Part shown: one piece after another, positions 4,649 to 14,151 of the stretch
Layout of the letters: each line of letters starts with the position of its first letter
How positions within the stretch are numbered: the stretch's first letter is position 1
Origin: a virus
Virus record (IMG/VR): IMGVR_UViG_3300021197_000705
Coordinates: 1-36,518 of that record
Length of the DNA stretch: 36,518 bases
Strand: one strand, 5' to 3'
Notes under the pieces: model-generated
Database searches by the model: none
The model's input: the letters and a program-made list of their open reading frames with translations, nothing else
What the model was told of the DNA's origin: nothing
Position numbers and translations under genes: made by a program

Positions 4649-5404
4649 ATGGCTAAGGTTCTGTTCTACGATATAGAAACTGCACCTAACCTCGCATACG
4701 TGTGGGGGCAATACGATCAGAATGTCATTTCCCAGCACAGAAGCTGGTATTTGATGTGTTTCGCTTATCGTTGGGAGCATCAGAAACAGACTAAGGTTGT
4801 TTCCTTAACGGACTTTGAGTTGTATGACGAAGACCCAGAGAACGACAGAGAAGTAGCTCAAGCTTTGTGGGATTTGTTTGACGAAGCAGACATCGTGATT
4901 GCCCATAACGGGAACCGGTTTGACATGCGTAAAGCTAACGCACGTTTTGTTTTTCATGATATGAAGCCGCCTAGTTCTGTGCAGCAGGTAGATACTTTGA
5001 AAGTAGCTCGCAAACATTTTATGTTTAACTCGAACAAGTTGGGGGATCTCGGTGAGCACCTTGGGTTTGGTGGGAAGGAAGCTACAGGTGGGTTCGGTTT
5101 GTGGGTTGGTTGCATGAAGGGTGAGGAGAAAGCTTGGAAGCGTATGACTAAGTACGCTCGACAGGACGTAGATCTTTTGATGAATATTTATTACAAGCTG
5201 CGTCCGTGGATGGATAATCATCCTAACAAAAACATTATTAACGATACGACTAGGCAGTGCCCTACGTGTTCTAGTCCTCATTTGTTGAAGCGTGGGTACA
5301 AACGGAACAGGACTACTTCTTATGTCCAGTTAGAGTGTGTGGATTGTGGAGCGCTTTGTCGTGAGAGAACTAAGTCTAACGAAGTCACACCTAGCGTAGT
5401 ATAA
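4649..5404 (+). CDS. DnaQ-like 3'-5' exonuclease with C-terminal zinc ribbon
   Basis: A 251-residue DEDD-family nuclease. Exo I is FYDIET (D8, E10); Exo II is IAHNGNRFD (N87, D92); Exo III has the YxxxD form (Y169, D173). The fold matches stand-alone RNase H-like exonucleases rather than a polymerase domain. Residues 204-237 add a zinc ribbon (C204, C207, C230, C233, with C237 nearby) that probably binds nucleic acid. The start has AGGGAG eight bases upstream. It is the last rightward gene before the convergent terminator, so it is transcribed with the tail genes although its function suggests DNA repair, recombination-end processing or degradation of host DNA. No phage DNA polymerase was found that it could proofread for. 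Confidence 0.88.
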   Translation: MAKVLFYDIETAPNLAYVWGQYDQNVISQHRSWYLMCFAYRWEHQKQTKVVSLTDFELYDEDPENDREVAQALWDLFDEADIVIAHNGNRFDMRKANARFVFHDMKPPSSVQQVDTLKVARKHFMFNSNKLGDLGEHLGFGGKEATGGFGLWVGCMKGEEKAWKRMTKYARQDVDLLMNIYYKLRPWMDNHPNKNIINDTTRQCPTCSSPHLLKRGYKRNRTTSYVQLECVDCGALCRERTKSNEVTPSVV

Positions 5405-5859: not shown

Positions 5860-6127
5860 CGTATTTCTCCTCCCGTAAAAATTTCACAAAAGCAGATCGT
5901 GCGTTGTAGCGCACGTCAGAGCTTCGCATCATCATGCTGCGAGAGTGAGCGCTTTGCCCGCCCCATGTGCATGACGGTGTGTAACTTATGCGGCGATGCC
6001 AATCTACGTCTGAGAGAGCTTCCCATAAACATTCTTTGTTCACTGGACAATCTTTGCAGTAGCTTGGAATAACTTCGTCAACGTGAAGCCCCCGACATTT
6101 AGCGAAGTCACGCCAGTTAGTTTTCAC
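5849..6127 (-). CDS. WhiB-family iron-sulfur regulator
   Basis: A 92-residue protein with GTG start. It has all four WhiB cysteines (C11, C24, C27, C33, in the form C-x12-CxxC-x5-C with CPVNKECL) and the turn motif W55-G56-G57 followed by S and R. These bind a [4Fe-4S] cluster and contact the primary sigma factor in characterised WhiB proteins. The family is confined to actinobacteria and their phages, so this gene is the best host indicator in the window. The C-terminal 30 residues are basic (R and K rich), fitting DNA binding. Phage WhiB proteins such as that of mycobacteriophage TM4 repress host WhiB genes and affect division and superinfection; a similar role here is inference. Confidence 0.92.
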   Translation of the reverse strand: MKTNWRDFAKCRGLHVDEVIPSYCKDCPVNKECLWEALSDVDWHRRISYTPSCTWGGQSAHSRSMMMRSSDVRYNARSAFVKFLREEKYDGG

Positions 6128-6431
6128 GATGCTGCCGCATCATCAATATACGATCTATAGTCGTCCCTGTCTGGCTCCGGGCCGCTCTGCGAGATGAACG
6201 TAAAGTGTACTCTAGGGCTGATATCGTGTAAGCATCTGTACGATGCAAAGCGTTTATGATTTCGTCGTCTTGGTATCCTGCTTCTAAACATCGGCGGACA
6301 ATCCCTCTGACTTGGTTGTATGGAGTAATGGGTTTAGGGTGCGCTTGCTCCCAGAATCTGTCTACTACTATGGTGGCATCTTGTGTGTCTACAGTGGTGG
6401 ATCGTAAAGATAGCTCTTTCCTATTCTCCAT
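6117..6431 (-). CDS. Hypothetical protein of the replication operon
   Basis: A 104-residue protein with overlaps of 10-11 bases on both sides. The central part (VDRFWEQAHPKPITPYNQVRGIVRRCLEAGYQDDEIINALHR, about residues 24-65) is predicted helical and has the look of the C-terminal domain of small phage replisome organisers (a W-x-P-x3-Y helix followed by an AGYxxxxIxxAL helix). The C-terminus is basic. It could be a replication initiator or adaptor accompanying the helicase loader two genes downstream, but no family was firmly recognised. Confidence 0.7.
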   Translation of the reverse strand: MENRKELSLRSTTVDTQDATIVVDRFWEQAHPKPITPYNQVRGIVRRCLEAGYQDDEIINALHRTDAYTISALEYTLRSSRRAARSQTGTTIDRILMMRQHREN

Positions 6432-7871: not shown

Positions 7872-8278
7872 TTATTTCCTTCTTCCTGTTCCGCTTCAAA
7901 TTCGAAACGATGATGTAAGTAGTAGTTATCTTGCGCCCACAGATGCAGGCCCAGTCCGAAATGTCGTGCAGCTCTTTTGAGACCGTCGCTAATTGCCTCT
8001 TTAAGAAGCTCTCCGCTATCGGACATAGCCCGTGTGCCAATGCCTCCTGCTTCTTCTACGGTCACTTCACGACCGTCGATAGTGCAGGTTAGAGCTATTA
8101 TTATGCCGTCAACTTTGCCGTCTACTTCTATGATCTGTTTCACTTCAAGGTTGTACGGCCCAACAATTTCGAGTAGTCGTTGAGTGATCTCGGAATGAGA
8201 AACGTAATCAAACTTTCCTTTCTTGGAAATGTAACGCTTCGGGAAAGGCTGAGCTAATCTTGAAAGTTGCTCAGTCAT
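7868..8278 (-). CDS. Rad52-like single-strand annealing protein
   Basis: A 136-residue protein with the actinophage Rad52-type signature: LAQPFPKRYISKKGKFDYVSHSEITQRLLEIVGP at the N-terminus, a beta-sheet with IIALTCTIDGREVTVEE, and SDSGELLKEAISDGLKRAARHFGLGLHLW, the helix-strand segment that binds DNA in Rad52 rings. It would anneal complementary strands exposed by the phage exonuclease. It overlaps the ssb gene by ATGA, so the two are probably made in balance. The C-terminal tail is acidic (FEAEQEEGNK). Confidence 0.88.
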   Translation of the reverse strand: MTEQLSRLAQPFPKRYISKKGKFDYVSHSEITQRLLEIVGPYNLEVKQIIEVDGKVDGIIIALTCTIDGREVTVEEAGGIGTRAMSDSGELLKEAISDGLKRAARHFGLGLHLWAQDNYYLHHRFEFEAEQEEGNK

Positions 8279-9221
8279 CTTTCAGTACCTGTCCGGCGAC
8301 ACTAACAAAAGTAGGAGCGTCCTTCGCTTTGGAGCCAGGCGTTTGGCCTACCTTCGGCATGTCCCAACTGTAAACAATTCGCTGCAATGATTTGCCGTGA
8401 ATCCAATAGTTGAAAGCAGTAAGCATAGCAACAATTTGTGGTGGCATTTTCATTTGCACACCAGGAATCGCGACATGTTTGGTTATGTATTTGCGTAGAG
8501 TCGTGCGGGGGTCGTTGGCATGAGATATACCAATGCCGTTAACCACTCCGTTCAAAAACTTATCGCAAACTTCTTGCCCATATTGGGCAGTGATCTTGTG
8601 CAGGGTATAAGCCCACGCAGTTTTAGAACCCTTCACGCTGTCCACTGCTATGCTTGCAAGTCTGATTGACTCGTACATTGATTCTATCAAATTGTTGTTA
8701 ACAATGTAATCCACAACGTCGTTCTTATTAACGTTGCGTAAAGCATCTCTTTCGCTGACGGTAGCCGTCGCGCTGCTAAAGTTTAAACCTAAATCGCTAG
8801 CTATTAAAAGCTTGCCCAGTGCCATGACCGAACGAGCTTGCTTCCAGTTTTGGGCATTAGCAATGTCACTCGGTGTACGCATAGCACCATCATCAATAGT
8901 GTTGTACGCTTTCTCTGGCAGGTTCCGCACAACCAACTGGTCAGGGAGAGTTGTGCCGCTCATAGCAATAGCTGTCAATCTGTGTTGTCCGTCAATCAAC
9001 CGGCCAGATGTGCTGAAACGAAATGTGTCACCGTTAGGTATCCACTTCCCATTTTTAAGCATCGAAATATATCTGGCGACAACATAACGGCGTATTCTTC
9101 TGTTGTCTTGGTTGTGCTGTAGAAACTCTTCAGCTATAGACGGTGTTATGTCTATCAGTTCGTAAGTTCTGCTGCTCCTGTCCATAATTTTGCGGTTTAA
9201 TCTATCCGGTGAATGGTCCAT
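8271..9221 (-). CDS. ParB/sulfiredoxin-fold protein with DGQHR motif
   Basis: A 316-residue protein. An N-terminal region of about 20 residues precedes a ParB-N-like domain: ITPSIAEEFLQHN..NR, then YVVARYISMLKNGKWIPNGDTFRFSTSGRLIDGQHRLTAI. The DGQHR box (77-81) takes the place of the GERR box of true ParB proteins. Next comes a DDGAMRTPSDI segment and a mostly helical C-terminal 200 residues. This family is frequent in actinophages and is usually annotated ParB-like nuclease, with no proven function. It lacks a recognisable ParB helix-turn-helix and dimer domain, so it is probably not a segregation ParB. The start at 9221 has AAGGGA five bases upstream; an alternative ATG lies at 9185. Confidence 0.75.
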   Translation of the reverse strand: MDHSPDRLNRKIMDRSSRTYELIDITPSIAEEFLQHNQDNRRIRRYVVARYISMLKNGKWIPNGDTFRFSTSGRLIDGQHRLTAIAMSGTTLPDQLVVRNLPEKAYNTIDDGAMRTPSDIANAQNWKQARSVMALGKLLIASDLGLNFSSATATVSERDALRNVNKNDVVDYIVNNNLIESMYESIRLASIAVDSVKGSKTAWAYTLHKITAQYGQEVCDKFLNGVVNGIGISHANDPRTTLRKYITKHVAIPGVQMKMPPQIVAMLTAFNYWIHGKSLQRIVYSWDMPKVGQTPGSKAKDAPTFVSVAGQVLKDD

Positions 9222-11197: not shown

Positions 11198-11255
11198 TCA
11201 GACGCACGGGTGTCGTCTGATAGTGAAAGGGTTCGCCCTACGGGCGTTCCCTTTC
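11198..11255. other. Two adjacent palindromes upstream of the iterons
   Basis: The first pairs TCAGACG (11198-11204) with CGTCTGA (11214-11220). The second, 11225-11255, is symmetrical: GAAAGGG-TT-CGCCC-TAC-GGGCG-TT-CCCTTTC. Neither is followed by a T-run in either direction, and no gene reads into them from nearby, so they look like structural or protein-binding elements of the control region rather than terminators. Confidence 0.6.
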
Positions 11256-11284
11256 CCTGTCTTGAGTTTGCCTTGATTGGCTAT

Positions 11285-11380
11285 GTTACTGAACGGTAAT
11301 TAAGCTAAGTTACTGAACGGTAGTTTAGTTAAGTTACTGAACGGTAACTAAGTTAAGTTACTAAACGGTAGTTAAGTTAT
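11285..11380 (+). repeat. Four tandem 24-bp iteron-like repeats
   Basis: Four head-to-tail units begin at 11285, 11309, 11333 and 11357, all 24 bp. The first 14 bases are GTTACTGAACGGTA in units 1-3 and GTTACTAAACGGTA in unit 4; the remaining ten vary (AT-rich, ending TTAA/CTAA/TTAT). In unit 3 the core is part of an inverted repeat GTTAC-TGAACG-GTAAC. A degenerate fifth copy (CTAAATGG) follows near 11387. Contiguous units with no spacers exclude a CRISPR. The layout fits origin iterons or clustered operators. Confidence 0.88.
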
Positions 11381-11403
11381 TTAGTGCTAAATGGTTAGGG
11401 GAT

Positions 11404-11419
11404 TGTTTCACGTGGAACA
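11404..11419. promoter_or_regulatory. parS: parS-like centromere site
   Basis: The 16 bases TGTTTCACGTGGAACA read TGTTCCACGTGAAACA on the other strand. This fits the chromosomal parS consensus TGTTNCACGTGAAACA at every defined position. The flanking T and A extend the inverted repeat to 18 bp. Such sites are bound by ParB CTPases of the host chromosome-segregation system. It lies 23 bp after the iterons and 95 bp before a rightward promoter. No ParA or canonical ParB is encoded here. Confidence 0.8.
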
Positions 11420-11420
11420 A

Positions 11421-11475
11421 TTAGAGTTCTAAGCCTTAGTTATTAGGTTGTAAATAATTAATATTAATAGTTCTA
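11421..11475. other. AT-rich stretch, possible DNA-unwinding element
   Basis: This stretch is strongly A/T biased, with ATAATTAATATTAATAG near its right end, directly after the iterons and parS site. In iteron-type origins an AT-rich element normally flanks the repeats. It also lies upstream of the rightward promoter, so it could simply be an upstream promoter element. Confidence 0.4.
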
Positions 11476-11500
11476 TTGTGTCATTTAGTAACACCATACC

Positions 11501-11515
11501 TGTATACTTTACCTA
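11501..11515 (+). promoter_or_regulatory. Leaderless promoter of the rightward small-gene operon
   Basis: TGTATACT with -10 TATACT at 11503-11508 lies six bases before the ATG at 11515, so transcription should begin at or next to the start codon. No Shine-Dalgarno sequence precedes the ATG. No convincing -35 was found. Leaderless starts are common in actinobacteria, and two or three more of this form occur in this window. Confidence 0.6.
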
Positions 11516-11769
11516 TGGACGAGAACGCATTGAAGATAGATGCCCTAATGGATCAAATAGAAAACGATTTCATTGAACAATCAGAACAGGAATCTAGGCA
11601 CGATTGGTTCTGTGAGTTACTTGGTAACTCTGGCAGATTTCAACAATATGATCTAGAAAATCTTAGTTGCCTAGATGCTGATGAGATATGGAAGTTCTCC
11701 AATCGTCTTGATAAGTTAGCGGACCAATTCGAGAAGTTAATCAAACGCAAAACAGAAAAGGGAATATAA
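11515..11769 (+). CDS. Hypothetical acidic protein (84 aa), leaderless
   Basis: I use the ATG at 11515 rather than the upstream GTG at 11476, because the -10 box at 11503-11508 would otherwise lie inside the gene. The product is 84 residues, acidic at the N-terminus (MDENALKIDALMDQIENDF) and helical throughout, ending in a lysine/arginine-rich helix (DKLADQFEKLIKRKTEKG). It may form a coiled coil. No family recognised. It is the first gene of a rightward operon next to the putative origin and parS. Confidence 0.7.
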   Translation: MDENALKIDALMDQIENDFIEQSEQESRHDWFCELLGNSGRFQQYDLENLSCLDADEIWKFSNRLDKLADQFEKLIKRKTEKGI

Positions 11770-11770
11770 A

Positions 11771-12301
11771 ATGGTCAACAATCCGGAAGTCAATCGGGCT
11801 TACCGTTTGATAAGTAAGCATTGCAAATCTCAAGCACCTACTGAAAGGCAAATTCAAGACTTGAATATTGAGGTTAACGACTACAAGATCGACGACAGTT
11901 CCGCTCATATAAACGAGTTTGACGTGTGCGTTCATGTCTTTGATTTCGATTACTCACCCGCTTACAAACACTTTGGGGAATTGCTTAACCTGTTTCCACA
12001 ACTAGGCGCTGCGTTTGCTGCTACTGATTGGGCTGCTCAGCGTACTGATGCGATCATTGGGGAAGCTATAGACCCAGGTATTGATGGGGATTTATGGGAA
12101 GTAATCAATGCCGATACTTGGCGAATATCTGACATTGTTAGGATGTCTGAAGAGAGCGGAGATACTTATTATTTTGAAGAGTATCTTACTTTAATTAATG
12201 ACCATTTAGAAGACCGCTATCTATATGTAGAAGAGGGATCTTTGTATGTGGCTGTTCATGCTATGGAATCCGTGCAAGATAACCAGACCGCAGGCGTATG
12301 A
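11771..12301 (+). CDS. Hypothetical acidic protein (176 aa)
   Basis: ATG at 11771, one base after the previous stop, with AGGGA eight bases upstream. The 176-residue protein is acidic, with aromatic-rich segments (FDVCVHVFDFDYSPAYKHFGELL; WEVINADTWRISDIVRM) and no membrane segment. It does not match a family I know. The stop is in an ATGA overlap with the next gene. Operon context suggests an accessory or host-interaction role. Confidence 0.72.
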   Translation: MVNNPEVNRAYRLISKHCKSQAPTERQIQDLNIEVNDYKIDDSSAHINEFDVCVHVFDFDYSPAYKHFGELLNLFPQLGAAFAATDWAAQRTDAIIGEAIDPGIDGDLWEVINADTWRISDIVRMSEESGDTYYFEEYLTLINDHLEDRYLYVEEGSLYVAVHAMESVQDNQTAGV

Positions 12302-12669
12302 GAACGCTACTTGTTGATCCTGATCCGATAGTTACCGCCTCACTCTCCAAGTTCGGCGCATTAGAACGCTCTAAACTTGCCGACATTTTGCAAGCGTGGG
12401 AGAAATGGGGATTACCTGACGATTTCGACGATACCGAAGTGGTCGCCCTATTCAATACACATAGTGGAATGGTGTTCTTGTCTAATGACAATTATGACAC
12501 GCTAGTTTTGGAGGATGGGAAGCTAGTCCAGTGGTACGTTTTGCCATGGGGCGGGCATGAGGGCACACTTCGCGACTTGTTCAACGATAGCACTATGGAA
12601 GAGTGGAAGACTTGGCATGAAGAGGACCGCGATTTTGTAAATCAGCTAAGAAAAGAGGCAAGCGAATGA
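12298..12669 (+). CDS. Hypothetical protein (123 aa)
   Basis: A soluble, acidic 123-residue protein coupled to both neighbours by ATGA overlaps. It starts with MRTLLVDPDPIVTASLSKFG, then a helix with WEKWGLPDDFDD, two short strands (GMVFLSNDNYDTLVLEDGKLVQWYVLPWGG) and a helical C-terminus rich in W, E and D. No recognised domain. Confidence 0.72.
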   Translation: MRTLLVDPDPIVTASLSKFGALERSKLADILQAWEKWGLPDDFDDTEVVALFNTHSGMVFLSNDNYDTLVLEDGKLVQWYVLPWGGHEGTLRDLFNDSTMEEWKTWHEEDRDFVNQLRKEASE

Positions 12670-12791
12670 TAAGCGATAATAGTTGCCTCGTTGACTGCGT
12701 CAGCGCTAGCCCAATAAGCCTAAGGCATGTGGTCATTTTTCTCAGTGCCTGCGCTCTCCTATTCTGGACCTACGAAAGATTCATTAGATGA
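12666..12791 (+). CDS. Tiny membrane protein (41 aa)
   Basis: ATG at 12666 overlaps the previous stop as ATGA; the stop at 12789-12791 overlaps the next ATG in the same way. The product begins MISDNSCLVDCVSAS and has one hydrophobic segment, about residues 21-36 (HVVIFLSACALLFWTY), followed by ERFIR, which suggests a single-pass membrane peptide with a basic cytoplasmic end. Double translational coupling supports a real gene despite its size. Confidence 0.62.
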   Translation: MISDNSCLVDCVSASPISLRHVVIFLSACALLFWTYERFIR

Positions 12792-12952
12792 CAGACCTAA
12801 CCCTATCAATCCTAAGCCTAGTTCTAGTGACGCCTCTATGCATTTGGCTGTCACTGTCAGATAAGAAACAAGCAAAGATATTGAACCCAATTAAAAAACC
12901 ATTAAACAACCAGGATCCTAACGGGATCTACGATTACAAAAGGGAATTATGA
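12788..12952 (+). CDS. Small membrane-anchored protein (54 aa)
   Basis: ATG at 12788 and stop at 12950-12952, both in ATGA overlaps. Residues 3-24 (DLTLSILSLVLVTPLCIWLSLS) form a transmembrane helix at the N-terminus. The remaining 30 residues are basic and polar (DKKQAKILNPIKKPLNN). Together with the 41-aa gene it makes a pair of coupled membrane peptides. Spanins are unlikely, since the presumed host lacks an outer membrane. Confidence 0.65.
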   Translation: MTDLTLSILSLVLVTPLCIWLSLSDKKQAKILNPIKKPLNNQDPNGIYDYKREL

Positions 12953-13131
12953 CCGATAAAAATCCGTTCATGTCAAGTATGATAGTCTTTTCTAGTAAAG
13001 ACATCAGAGAAAAGAGCGAAGACGAATTGAAAGCCGAAGCATTGGCTCAGCTACGGGAACAGTTTACAAAAAAGCTGACTACTGAGTCGGACTCCGCCAC
13101 GATCTTCACTTCTCTCAAGGACGATAACTAA
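12949..13131 (+). CDS. Small hypothetical protein sharing DSATIFTSL with a tail protein (60 aa)
   Basis: ATG in an ATGA overlap; stop in a TAATG overlap. The product starts MTDKNPFMSSMIVFSSKDIRE, has a charged helix (EDELKAEALAQLREQFTKKL), and ends SDSATIFTSLKDDN. Residues 48-56, DSATIFTSL, are identical to residues 562-570 of the 623-aa tail protein, with codons that differ only at third positions. Function unknown. Confidence 0.7.
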   Translation: MTDKNPFMSSMIVFSSKDIREKSEDELKAEALAQLREQFTKKLTTESDSATIFTSLKDDN

Positions 13132-13352
13132 TGTACTCGGCCAACTATTTAGAACCCGGCGCTATCGCATGGCGCCAAGCGTTCGCAAAACACCTAACGA
13201 CTCACAAGTGCAAAGGATGCGGAACACAAGTTTGCTCAGGCCACGCTCAACTATCCCTAGATGACAGTCTAGATTATGACTGTAACTATAATCCGGAATG
13301 CCCATTTGCTGCACAATATGAAGACGGGATCTACTGCAACTACTGCCGATAA
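13131..13352 (+). CDS. Cysteine-rich, probably zinc-binding protein (73 aa)
   Basis: Last gene of the rightward small-gene operon, coupled by TAATG. Seven cysteines (C27, C30, C35, C51, C57, C69, C72) plus histidines are arranged as CKGCGTQVCSGH, C-x5-CPF and a terminal CNYCR, enough for one or two zinc sites. The first 22 residues look helical. A UUCG-loop terminator follows 23 bases after the stop. Confidence 0.72.
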   Translation: MYSANYLEPGAIAWRQAFAKHLTTHKCKGCGTQVCSGHAQLSLDDSLDYDCNYNPECPFAAQYEDGIYCNYCR

Positions 13353-13374
13353 CTAACCGATAACCAAACGAATT

Positions 13375-13410
13375 GGGCCAGTCTTTCGAGGCTGGTCCTC
13401 TTCCATTTTT
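13375..13410 (+). terminator. Intrinsic terminator with UUCG tetraloop
   Basis: GGGCCAGTCT (13375-13384) pairs with AGGCTGGTCC (13389-13398) as ten base pairs including two G-U pairs, closed by a TTCG tetraloop. The downstream side reads TCTTCC then ATTTTT. It ends the rightward operon that starts at 11515. Confidence 0.82.
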
Positions 13411-13557
13411 GCGAACAGCTACCAGCAAAACCAACCGAGGGCAAACGAACAAACGCAAAACGTTTTTCGTGCGCCAGCGCCCTATCCCTAACACCAACAA
13501 ACCCTACCCCCCTATAGTCTAGTCATTGGTGAGTAGGTTGTAGTGTTTAGTCTATTT

Positions 13558-13655
13558 AGGTACGGTACCTGTTAATAAACTTAGGATACCTATGTAGTAG
13601 GTTGACTAAGTATTAGGAGGCTAGAAACATAGGGAGTATGTGCCTAGGTACCTAG
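13558..13655. repeat. AGGTAC-type palindromes, operator-like
   Basis: Two perfect palindromes share the half-site AGGTAC: AGGTAC-G-GTACCT at 13558-13570 and CTAGGTACCTAG at 13644-13655. A shorter AGG-ATA-CCT lies at about 13582. Related CTAGGTA words occur at 7054 and 7104 in the leader region of an RHH gene. They may be binding sites of a phage regulator; this is inference. Confidence 0.4.
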
Positions 13656-13765
13656 TACTAACATAATGTTTATCGTCTGTTTAGCTAGTTTGGTTCAATG
13701 GTTTGTGGTTGTGTTGGTTGTGCGGATAGTTTGGTGGTGTTCGGGCGGGTTGTTTTGGGAGAATG

Positions 13766-14004
13766 TTCACCGCTTTGGTGAATGTTTGAGAGTGTTAGCC
13801 CCCCCTCTGGGGAGGAACTTACGTTGAGGTTGGTCCGCTTGTGGAGCCATGCCGTCGTTGTTAGCCAACAAGGTATTAGTTTGTTGGAAGGCCGGTGTGT
13901 AAGTGCGGATTGTTTCTTTGTGGCTGCCCAGGCTTCCCATTACCAGCCGTCCGTACTTTTGGGATATTTTTTGAACGCCTATGCAAGATTTGTTCGTAGG
14001 CGTT
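13766..14004 (+). ncRNA. Candidate structured RNA or structured DNA element
   Basis: Consecutive helices can be drawn by eye. TTCACC/GGTGAA with loop GCTTT at 13766-13782. CCAACAA/TTGTTGG at 13865-13887. A long arm with AAGTGCGGA/TCCGTACTT (13901-13909 with 13950-13958, one G-U) enclosing TGGCTG/CAGCCG, followed by a run of six T at 13967-13972. AACGCCTA/TAGGCGTT (13974-13981 with 13997-14004) enclosing GCAA/TTGT. No match to tmRNA, 6S, RNase P or tRNA was seen. A plus-strand transcript is assumed; no promoter for it was identified. A packaging site is an alternative reading. Confidence 0.35.
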
Positions 14005-14151
14005 GTTGACTGGTATCCGTTTGACGGGCTACTCCCCCTACCGTTGATAGGTTCGGGGGGCGGTTTCTCACCGTGCAACCCTAGTTTCCCTTGGGTCGGG
14101 GCCGATCTTTCTCGGTGTCGTGGGTTGTGTATGTTTATTGTAGCAGATGTT

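Follow-up and report, generated by a model that had tools for sequence, protein, structure and literature searches.

One published account (PMC11541004) reports anti-defence genes as clustered in plasmid leading regions. Such leading regions, like accessory early regions and anti-defence hot spots, resemble the locus studied here in that small unrelated genes form a compact operon whose content turns over between conserved flanks. The likeness to leading regions extends to a relative of one of our genes, g3, which lies near a relaxase gene, whereas the locus differs from anti-defence hot spots in that none of its genes matches a described anti-defence protein. RedRock and Miko, mycobacteriophages with extrachromosomal prophages, share with our actinobacterial phage a parS near direct repeats. 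However, the parS of RedRock consists of 8-bp repeats and ours is a single palindrome of the chromosomal type, and RedRock and Miko have parABS, whereas no parA, parB or repA was recognised here. The acidic anti-restriction proteins ArdA and Ocr are like g2 and g3 in being small, strongly acidic and borne by mobile elements, but g2 and g3 match neither of these families in Pfam and the fold of g3 has no significant match among solved structures.

The DNA that we analysed, hereafter the window, is an IMG/VR virus record of 36,518 bp in which terminal repeats are absent. Seven head-to-tail ATG ORFs (g1 to g7, all on the plus strand) span 11515-13352 according to the sequence and the ORF lists, in agreement with the sequence-only reading of this DNA, which had described seven coupled genes of 84, 176, 123, 41, 54, 60 and 73 residues. 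Genes g1 (11515-11769) and g2 (11771-12301) are separated by a one-base gap, ATGA overlaps join g2-g3, g3-g4, g4-g5 and g5-g6, and the g6-g7 junction is TAATG. First-order shuffling of 11480-13420 (1000 replicates) gave coupled chains of at most four ORFs when all start codons were allowed and three with ATG only, against the seven observed. Five coupled ORFs arose in 0/1000 shuffles, and the antisense strand gave a coupled-chain count of 1. Hexamer (codon-pair) scores strongly favoured the called frame for g1, g2, g3 and g6; g7 scored best in its own frame, yet weakly. Composition gave g4 and g5 no support, and we regard these two as genes on account of their coupling and their co-linear counterparts in a related locus, L003. 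The seven-ORF chain is not a product of chance and forms one compact, terminated gene unit.

The leaderless promoter proposed for g1 is plausible in its placement, with a putative -10 element TATACT (11503-11508, plus strand) 6 nt before the g1 ATG at 11515 and no Shine-Dalgarno sequence ahead of that ATG. The count of the pattern is, however, at chance level (TATAMT-N5-7-ATG, 2 occurrences in the window vs 1.85 expected). The UUCG-loop terminator that had been proposed was recovered as a predicted intrinsic terminator with a 10-bp stem and a TTCG loop (13375-13398, plus strand).

The products of g1 (84 aa, pI 4.4) and g2 (176 aa, net charge -22) are acidic orphans, and a single-sequence AlphaFold2 model of g2 was uninformative (pLDDT 33). 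The earlier description of two single-pass membrane peptides and one cysteine-rich protein also held. Each of g4 (12666-12791, 41 aa, motif SCxVD..SPI) and g5 (12788-12952, 54 aa, with a charged C-terminal tail) has one hydrophobic segment, and g7 (13131-13352, 73 aa) is a zinc-finger-like orphan with seven cysteines, including two CxxC motifs. The remaining gene, g6 (12949-13131), encodes an orphan of 60 aa. Scans of all seven proteins against Pfam, PHROGs and PADLOC, the last mainly a defence-gene library, returned nothing above noise. In these three libraries no gene of the seven matched a known anti-defence or takeover family, and the Pfam scan gave no toxin-antitoxin family. Viral collections scanned with g1, g2, g7 and g3 (as a single sequence) yielded no relatives by a method that detects close relatives only, and searches of solved structures by sequence with g2, g7 or the g3 profile brought no useful match. 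As judged from sequence, six of the seven genes are without usable relatives.

Left of the unit lies a leftward operon encoding a RusA-like resolvase, SSB, a single-strand annealing protein, a Cas4/PD-(D/E)XK nuclease and a lysozyme-like protein, and terminase and head genes lie to its right. Our search found no close cultured relative of the window TerL, and 80 related IMG/VR loci were fetched. The closest relatives with a complete slot are L002 and L003, with TerL identities to the window of 98% and 96%, respectively. L003 encodes a WhiB regulator (4827-5132, minus strand) that has no counterpart at the corresponding position of the window. Given this WhiB in so close a relative, and as WhiB-like proteins are exclusive to Actinobacteria (PMC8612146), an actinobacterial host is the most likely one. 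Just before the terminase operon, the window also contains about 470 nt of conserved non-coding sequence (13663-14130), which is common to L002, L003, L004 and L005 at 68-87%. Its predicted fold has at least one two-sided compensatory change in 20 of 88 pairs and Rfam gave no match, and the region is a candidate for a new structured RNA or a late-operon leader.

Comparison with these relatives placed iteron-like repeats, a parS-like site, the operon and its terminator in one exchangeable block (11228-13662) between conserved flanks. On the left, homology reaches window position 11227 in L003 and 11221 in L131, a relative by its exonuclease (95%) whose contig ends at that match, just before the block. 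On the right, nucleotide homology resumes at 13661-13667 in L002, L003, L073 and L013. Inside the block, no significant DNA similarity to the L002 or L003 slots or to other loci was detected, the terminator excepted. Between the same flanks L002 and L003 carry other genes, those of L002 running leftward and including one for a GP88 protein, and those of L003 forming a rightward four-gene chain with two leftward genes. Since the content is replaced between conserved edges, we regard the slot as a site at which entire sets of genes are swapped, a turnover seen in the two relatives that are sufficiently close, L002 and L003. The window terminator also lies, in the opposite orientation, in L003 (6866-6889, minus strand), where the two leftward genes would be the ones to use it. 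Such a terminator, common to two different gene sets but flipped in one of them, is a sign of modular exchange. Replaced content in L002 and L003, together with a terminator of its own, gives the unit features of a variable accessory (moron-type) cassette. Searches of the 80 related loci gave no significant homologue for any cassette gene. A g3 profile that does find the window returned nothing from 48 relatives' records, and a g2 search returned nothing from 45, with partial records limiting both results.

In the L003 slot, two genes joined by ATGA encode single-pass membrane peptides of 38 and 51 aa (5959-6075 and 6072-6227), compared with 41 and 54 aa in the window. Gene g4 shares SCxVD..SPI before the membrane segment with its counterpart (shuffle p = 0.022) and g5 shares the general layout and a YDYxxE tail (shuffle p = 0.014), these similarities being two of 49 comparisons and each weak. 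The SCxVD..SPI motif was found in no fetched locus besides L003. Homology of g4-g5 to the L003 pair is suggested by their co-linearity. Independent variation of the genes among relatives, which the sequence-only reading had counted against itself, is largely what we observed, as L003 retains no more than the g4-g5 pair and has other genes in place of the rest.

Upstream of the operon, four iteron-like direct repeats with a 24-bp period and the core TTACTGAACGGTA lie at 11278-11371 (plus strand). The core has five matches in the window at up to two mismatches, against 0.9 expected. At 11404-11419 lies the palindrome TGTTTCACGTGGAACA, which is expected fewer than 0.01 times by chance in the window; it is real and improbable by chance, and by its sequence it reads as a parS. 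The linkage of the operon to parS that had been claimed is unsupported. Although the upstream palindrome is real, it is absent from L002 and L003, and a six-frame scan of the record, which may be incomplete, found no ParA motif KGGxGK[TS]. The perfect site occurs in this record only, with 28 of the 33 relatives' records lacking the site and the other five, L002 and L003 not among them, having sites with one mismatch. Co-occurrence of cassette and parS in related phages, which the earlier reading had offered as a check, found no support; neither the perfect site nor the cassette was found in the relatives searched. As both the site and the repeats lie inside the block, they could have been acquired together with it, although the cassette was found nowhere else. 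Elsewhere in the window, u316 (8271-9221, minus strand) encodes a DGQHR motif protein of phrog_5931, a group of unknown function, found among the relatives only in the L131/L132 contig. It may be ParB/Srx-like, and the phage that encodes it carries a parS-like site. As a parS partner it was set aside, since, beyond the DGQHR motif, neither Pfam nor solved structures gave a match in support of ParB membership.

The protein encoded by g3 (12298-12669, plus strand) is an acidic polypeptide of 123 aa with a net charge of -14 and the motif FNxxSGxVFLxN. It had been stated that none of the seven genes matched a family, and for g3 this has to be revised. It belongs to an undescribed mobile-element family that extends across phages of Bacteria and Archaea, though the curated libraries searched are without it. 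The family is not described in PHROGs (v4) or NCBIfam, and g3 with five family members gave no significant match in Pfam. With g3 alone as query, and so independently of the profile, tblastn recovered the relative ctf1B273 (UOF77975.1, E = 5e-19). Further relatives found by tblastn were gp03 of Pelagibacter phage HTVC034P and gp59 of the Burkholderia phages BcepSauron and BcepSaruman, whilst Drs3_00037 of Methanobacterium virus Drs3 was weak with g3 as query and clear with a second family member (E = 2e-9). All of these are homologous to g3 over most of its length, the best local alignments with the uncharacterised phage proteins showing about 38-46% identity (Drs3 weaker), and g3 is assigned to the family by the shared motif and a near full-length alignment. 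A motif scan derived from the alignment added 43 viral contigs to the family, and a further search added one Chitinophaga contig, on which a gene for a TrwC relaxase (E = 4e-61) is found close to the g3 relative. Only 1/395 Bacteroidota genomes, the seed Chitinophaga genome, carries the family, so that g3 looks like a mobile-element gene; PLSDB plasmids gave no family member at a significant level.

In the alignment the conserved residues of g3 are F43, N53, S56-G57, V59-F60-L61, N63 and L76, with no obvious catalytic set among them. AlphaFold2 gave a confident alpha/beta model (pLDDT 89.4), which had three significant matches in BFVD. One of these is the Drs3 family member (E = 4.5e-7, TMt 0.84), with which g3 shares its predicted fold. 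Significant matches came from BFVD only, and the PDB returned nothing significant. A resemblance of the model to frataxin/CyaY was too weak (best Z 3.1) and was set aside, and a lone, weak AcrIIA4-family match for 1 of 29 family members (E = 0.009) was taken as noise.

In most of the contexts inspected, the neighbours of the g3 relatives are short ORFs that have not been characterised, and in many cases the terminase is adjacent or replication genes follow; the ctf1B273 relative sits upstream of SSB and helicase. Several are not in obviously coupled arrays, and the relatives' records also differ from the window in that a search of 16 viral-contig records of the family found no g2. On L100 (4989-5413) a g3 relative is followed by an ATGA-coupled membrane peptide of 31 aa, as in the window. 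On L087 (3539-3700, minus strand, and 4992-5336, plus strand) the best IMG/VR relative of g3 is close to a small acidic protein whose C terminus reads CGLENPESCESCE and which resembles one ahead of TerL in the window's phage group, placing g3 also near the terminase of a distant relative. BcepSauron gp59 (L084, 5989-6378), a family member of 129 aa, is annotated as a serine/threonine kinase and has no Pfam kinase match, and the label is likely a misannotation.

Our preferred reading, to which we give a probability of about 0.5, is that the unit serves host takeover or counter-defence as an exchangeable accessory operon of an uncultured tailed actinobacterial phage. The operon has the leftward replication/recombination operon on one side and the rightward late (terminase) operon on the other, and the cassette would be expressed early. 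The acidic soluble products of g1, g2 and g3, the cysteine-rich g7 and the membrane pair g4-g5 would act as small inhibitors that bind host or defence proteins and so aid takeover or counter-defence, with g3 as the portable part, its family being present in phages of very different hosts. We counted in favour of this reading the complete turnover of content between sharp conserved edges, the translational coupling of seven ORFs, the small acidic proteins, the inverted terminator common to L003, the g3 relatives among small early-type ORFs in unrelated phages (HTVC034P, BcepSauron and BcepSaruman, ctf1B273 and Drs3), the g3 relative close to a relaxase gene in Chitinophaga, and the rarity of the g3 family in cellular genomes, as expected of mobile-element genes. 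Counted against it were the lack of a match to any known anti-defence or takeover family, the g3 relatives outside obviously coupled arrays, and the small number (two) of relatives that show the turnover of the slot. The grouping of anti-defence genes in plasmid leading regions, as reported in PMC11541004, makes counter-defence a natural reading. Where the sequence-only reading had offered episome maintenance, host takeover or defence/anti-defence, takeover or counter-defence stays the best reading, and the tie to parS is not upheld.

Episome maintenance would take the iterons as an origin and have a host ParB grab the parS-like site, the operon stabilising a plasmid-like prophage. We consider this unlikely, even though the variable block contains both the iterons and a perfect parS-like palindrome immediately ahead of the operon. 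Extrachromosomal prophages have been described for actinobacterial phages, but those of the RedRock and Miko types carry their own parABS (PMC7157519). Here, by contrast, a ParA Walker motif was not found, the scanned genes include no recognisable integrase or repressor, and no gene of the seven looks like a replication initiator. Moreover, both closest complete-slot relatives do without parS, and g3 is found in phages without an iteron/parS context. An own terminator, a possible own promoter and a membrane peptide pair weakly kept in L003 would also suit lysogenic conversion or superinfection exclusion, in which the membrane peptides and their partners shield the carrier cell from other phages. 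This we hold to be improbable, given that PADLOC gave no match above noise and that the genes scanned, in a record that may be incomplete, show no temperate sign.

We are similarly doubtful of phage-internal early functions, such as regulation of replication, packaging or transcription, in a slot that merely tolerates turnover. That the g3 family occurs in bacterial as well as archaeal phages could point to a partner within the phage itself, and as this distribution could fit such a role equally well it counts against takeover or counter-defence; g7 could likewise be a nucleic-acid-binding zinc finger. Close relatives, however, do without all seven genes. A second lysis module, with the adjacent single-pass peptides g4 and g5 as a holin or spanin-like membrane pair, is very improbable, the endolysin and holin genes being located at 52-562, far from the unit.

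Within the preferred reading of takeover or counter-defence, a tentative and somewhat unlikely extension is that g3 founds a new small anti-defence or host-inhibitor family. This family would have an unsolved fold and be common to phages of Actinobacteria, Proteobacteria and methanogenic Archaea and to a relaxase-bearing Bacteroidota element, with the cassette adding a two-peptide membrane partner.

The kind of cassette is ordinary for phages, whose accessory slots are sites of turnover of counter-defence and takeover genes. Its sharp conserved flanks in close relatives make the slot minable across a group of uncultured actinobacterial phages. The part worth pursuing is the g3 family, which was not found in Pfam, PHROGs v4 or NCBIfam, yet occurs in cultured phages (HTVC034P, BcepSauron and Drs3) and is therefore directly testable.
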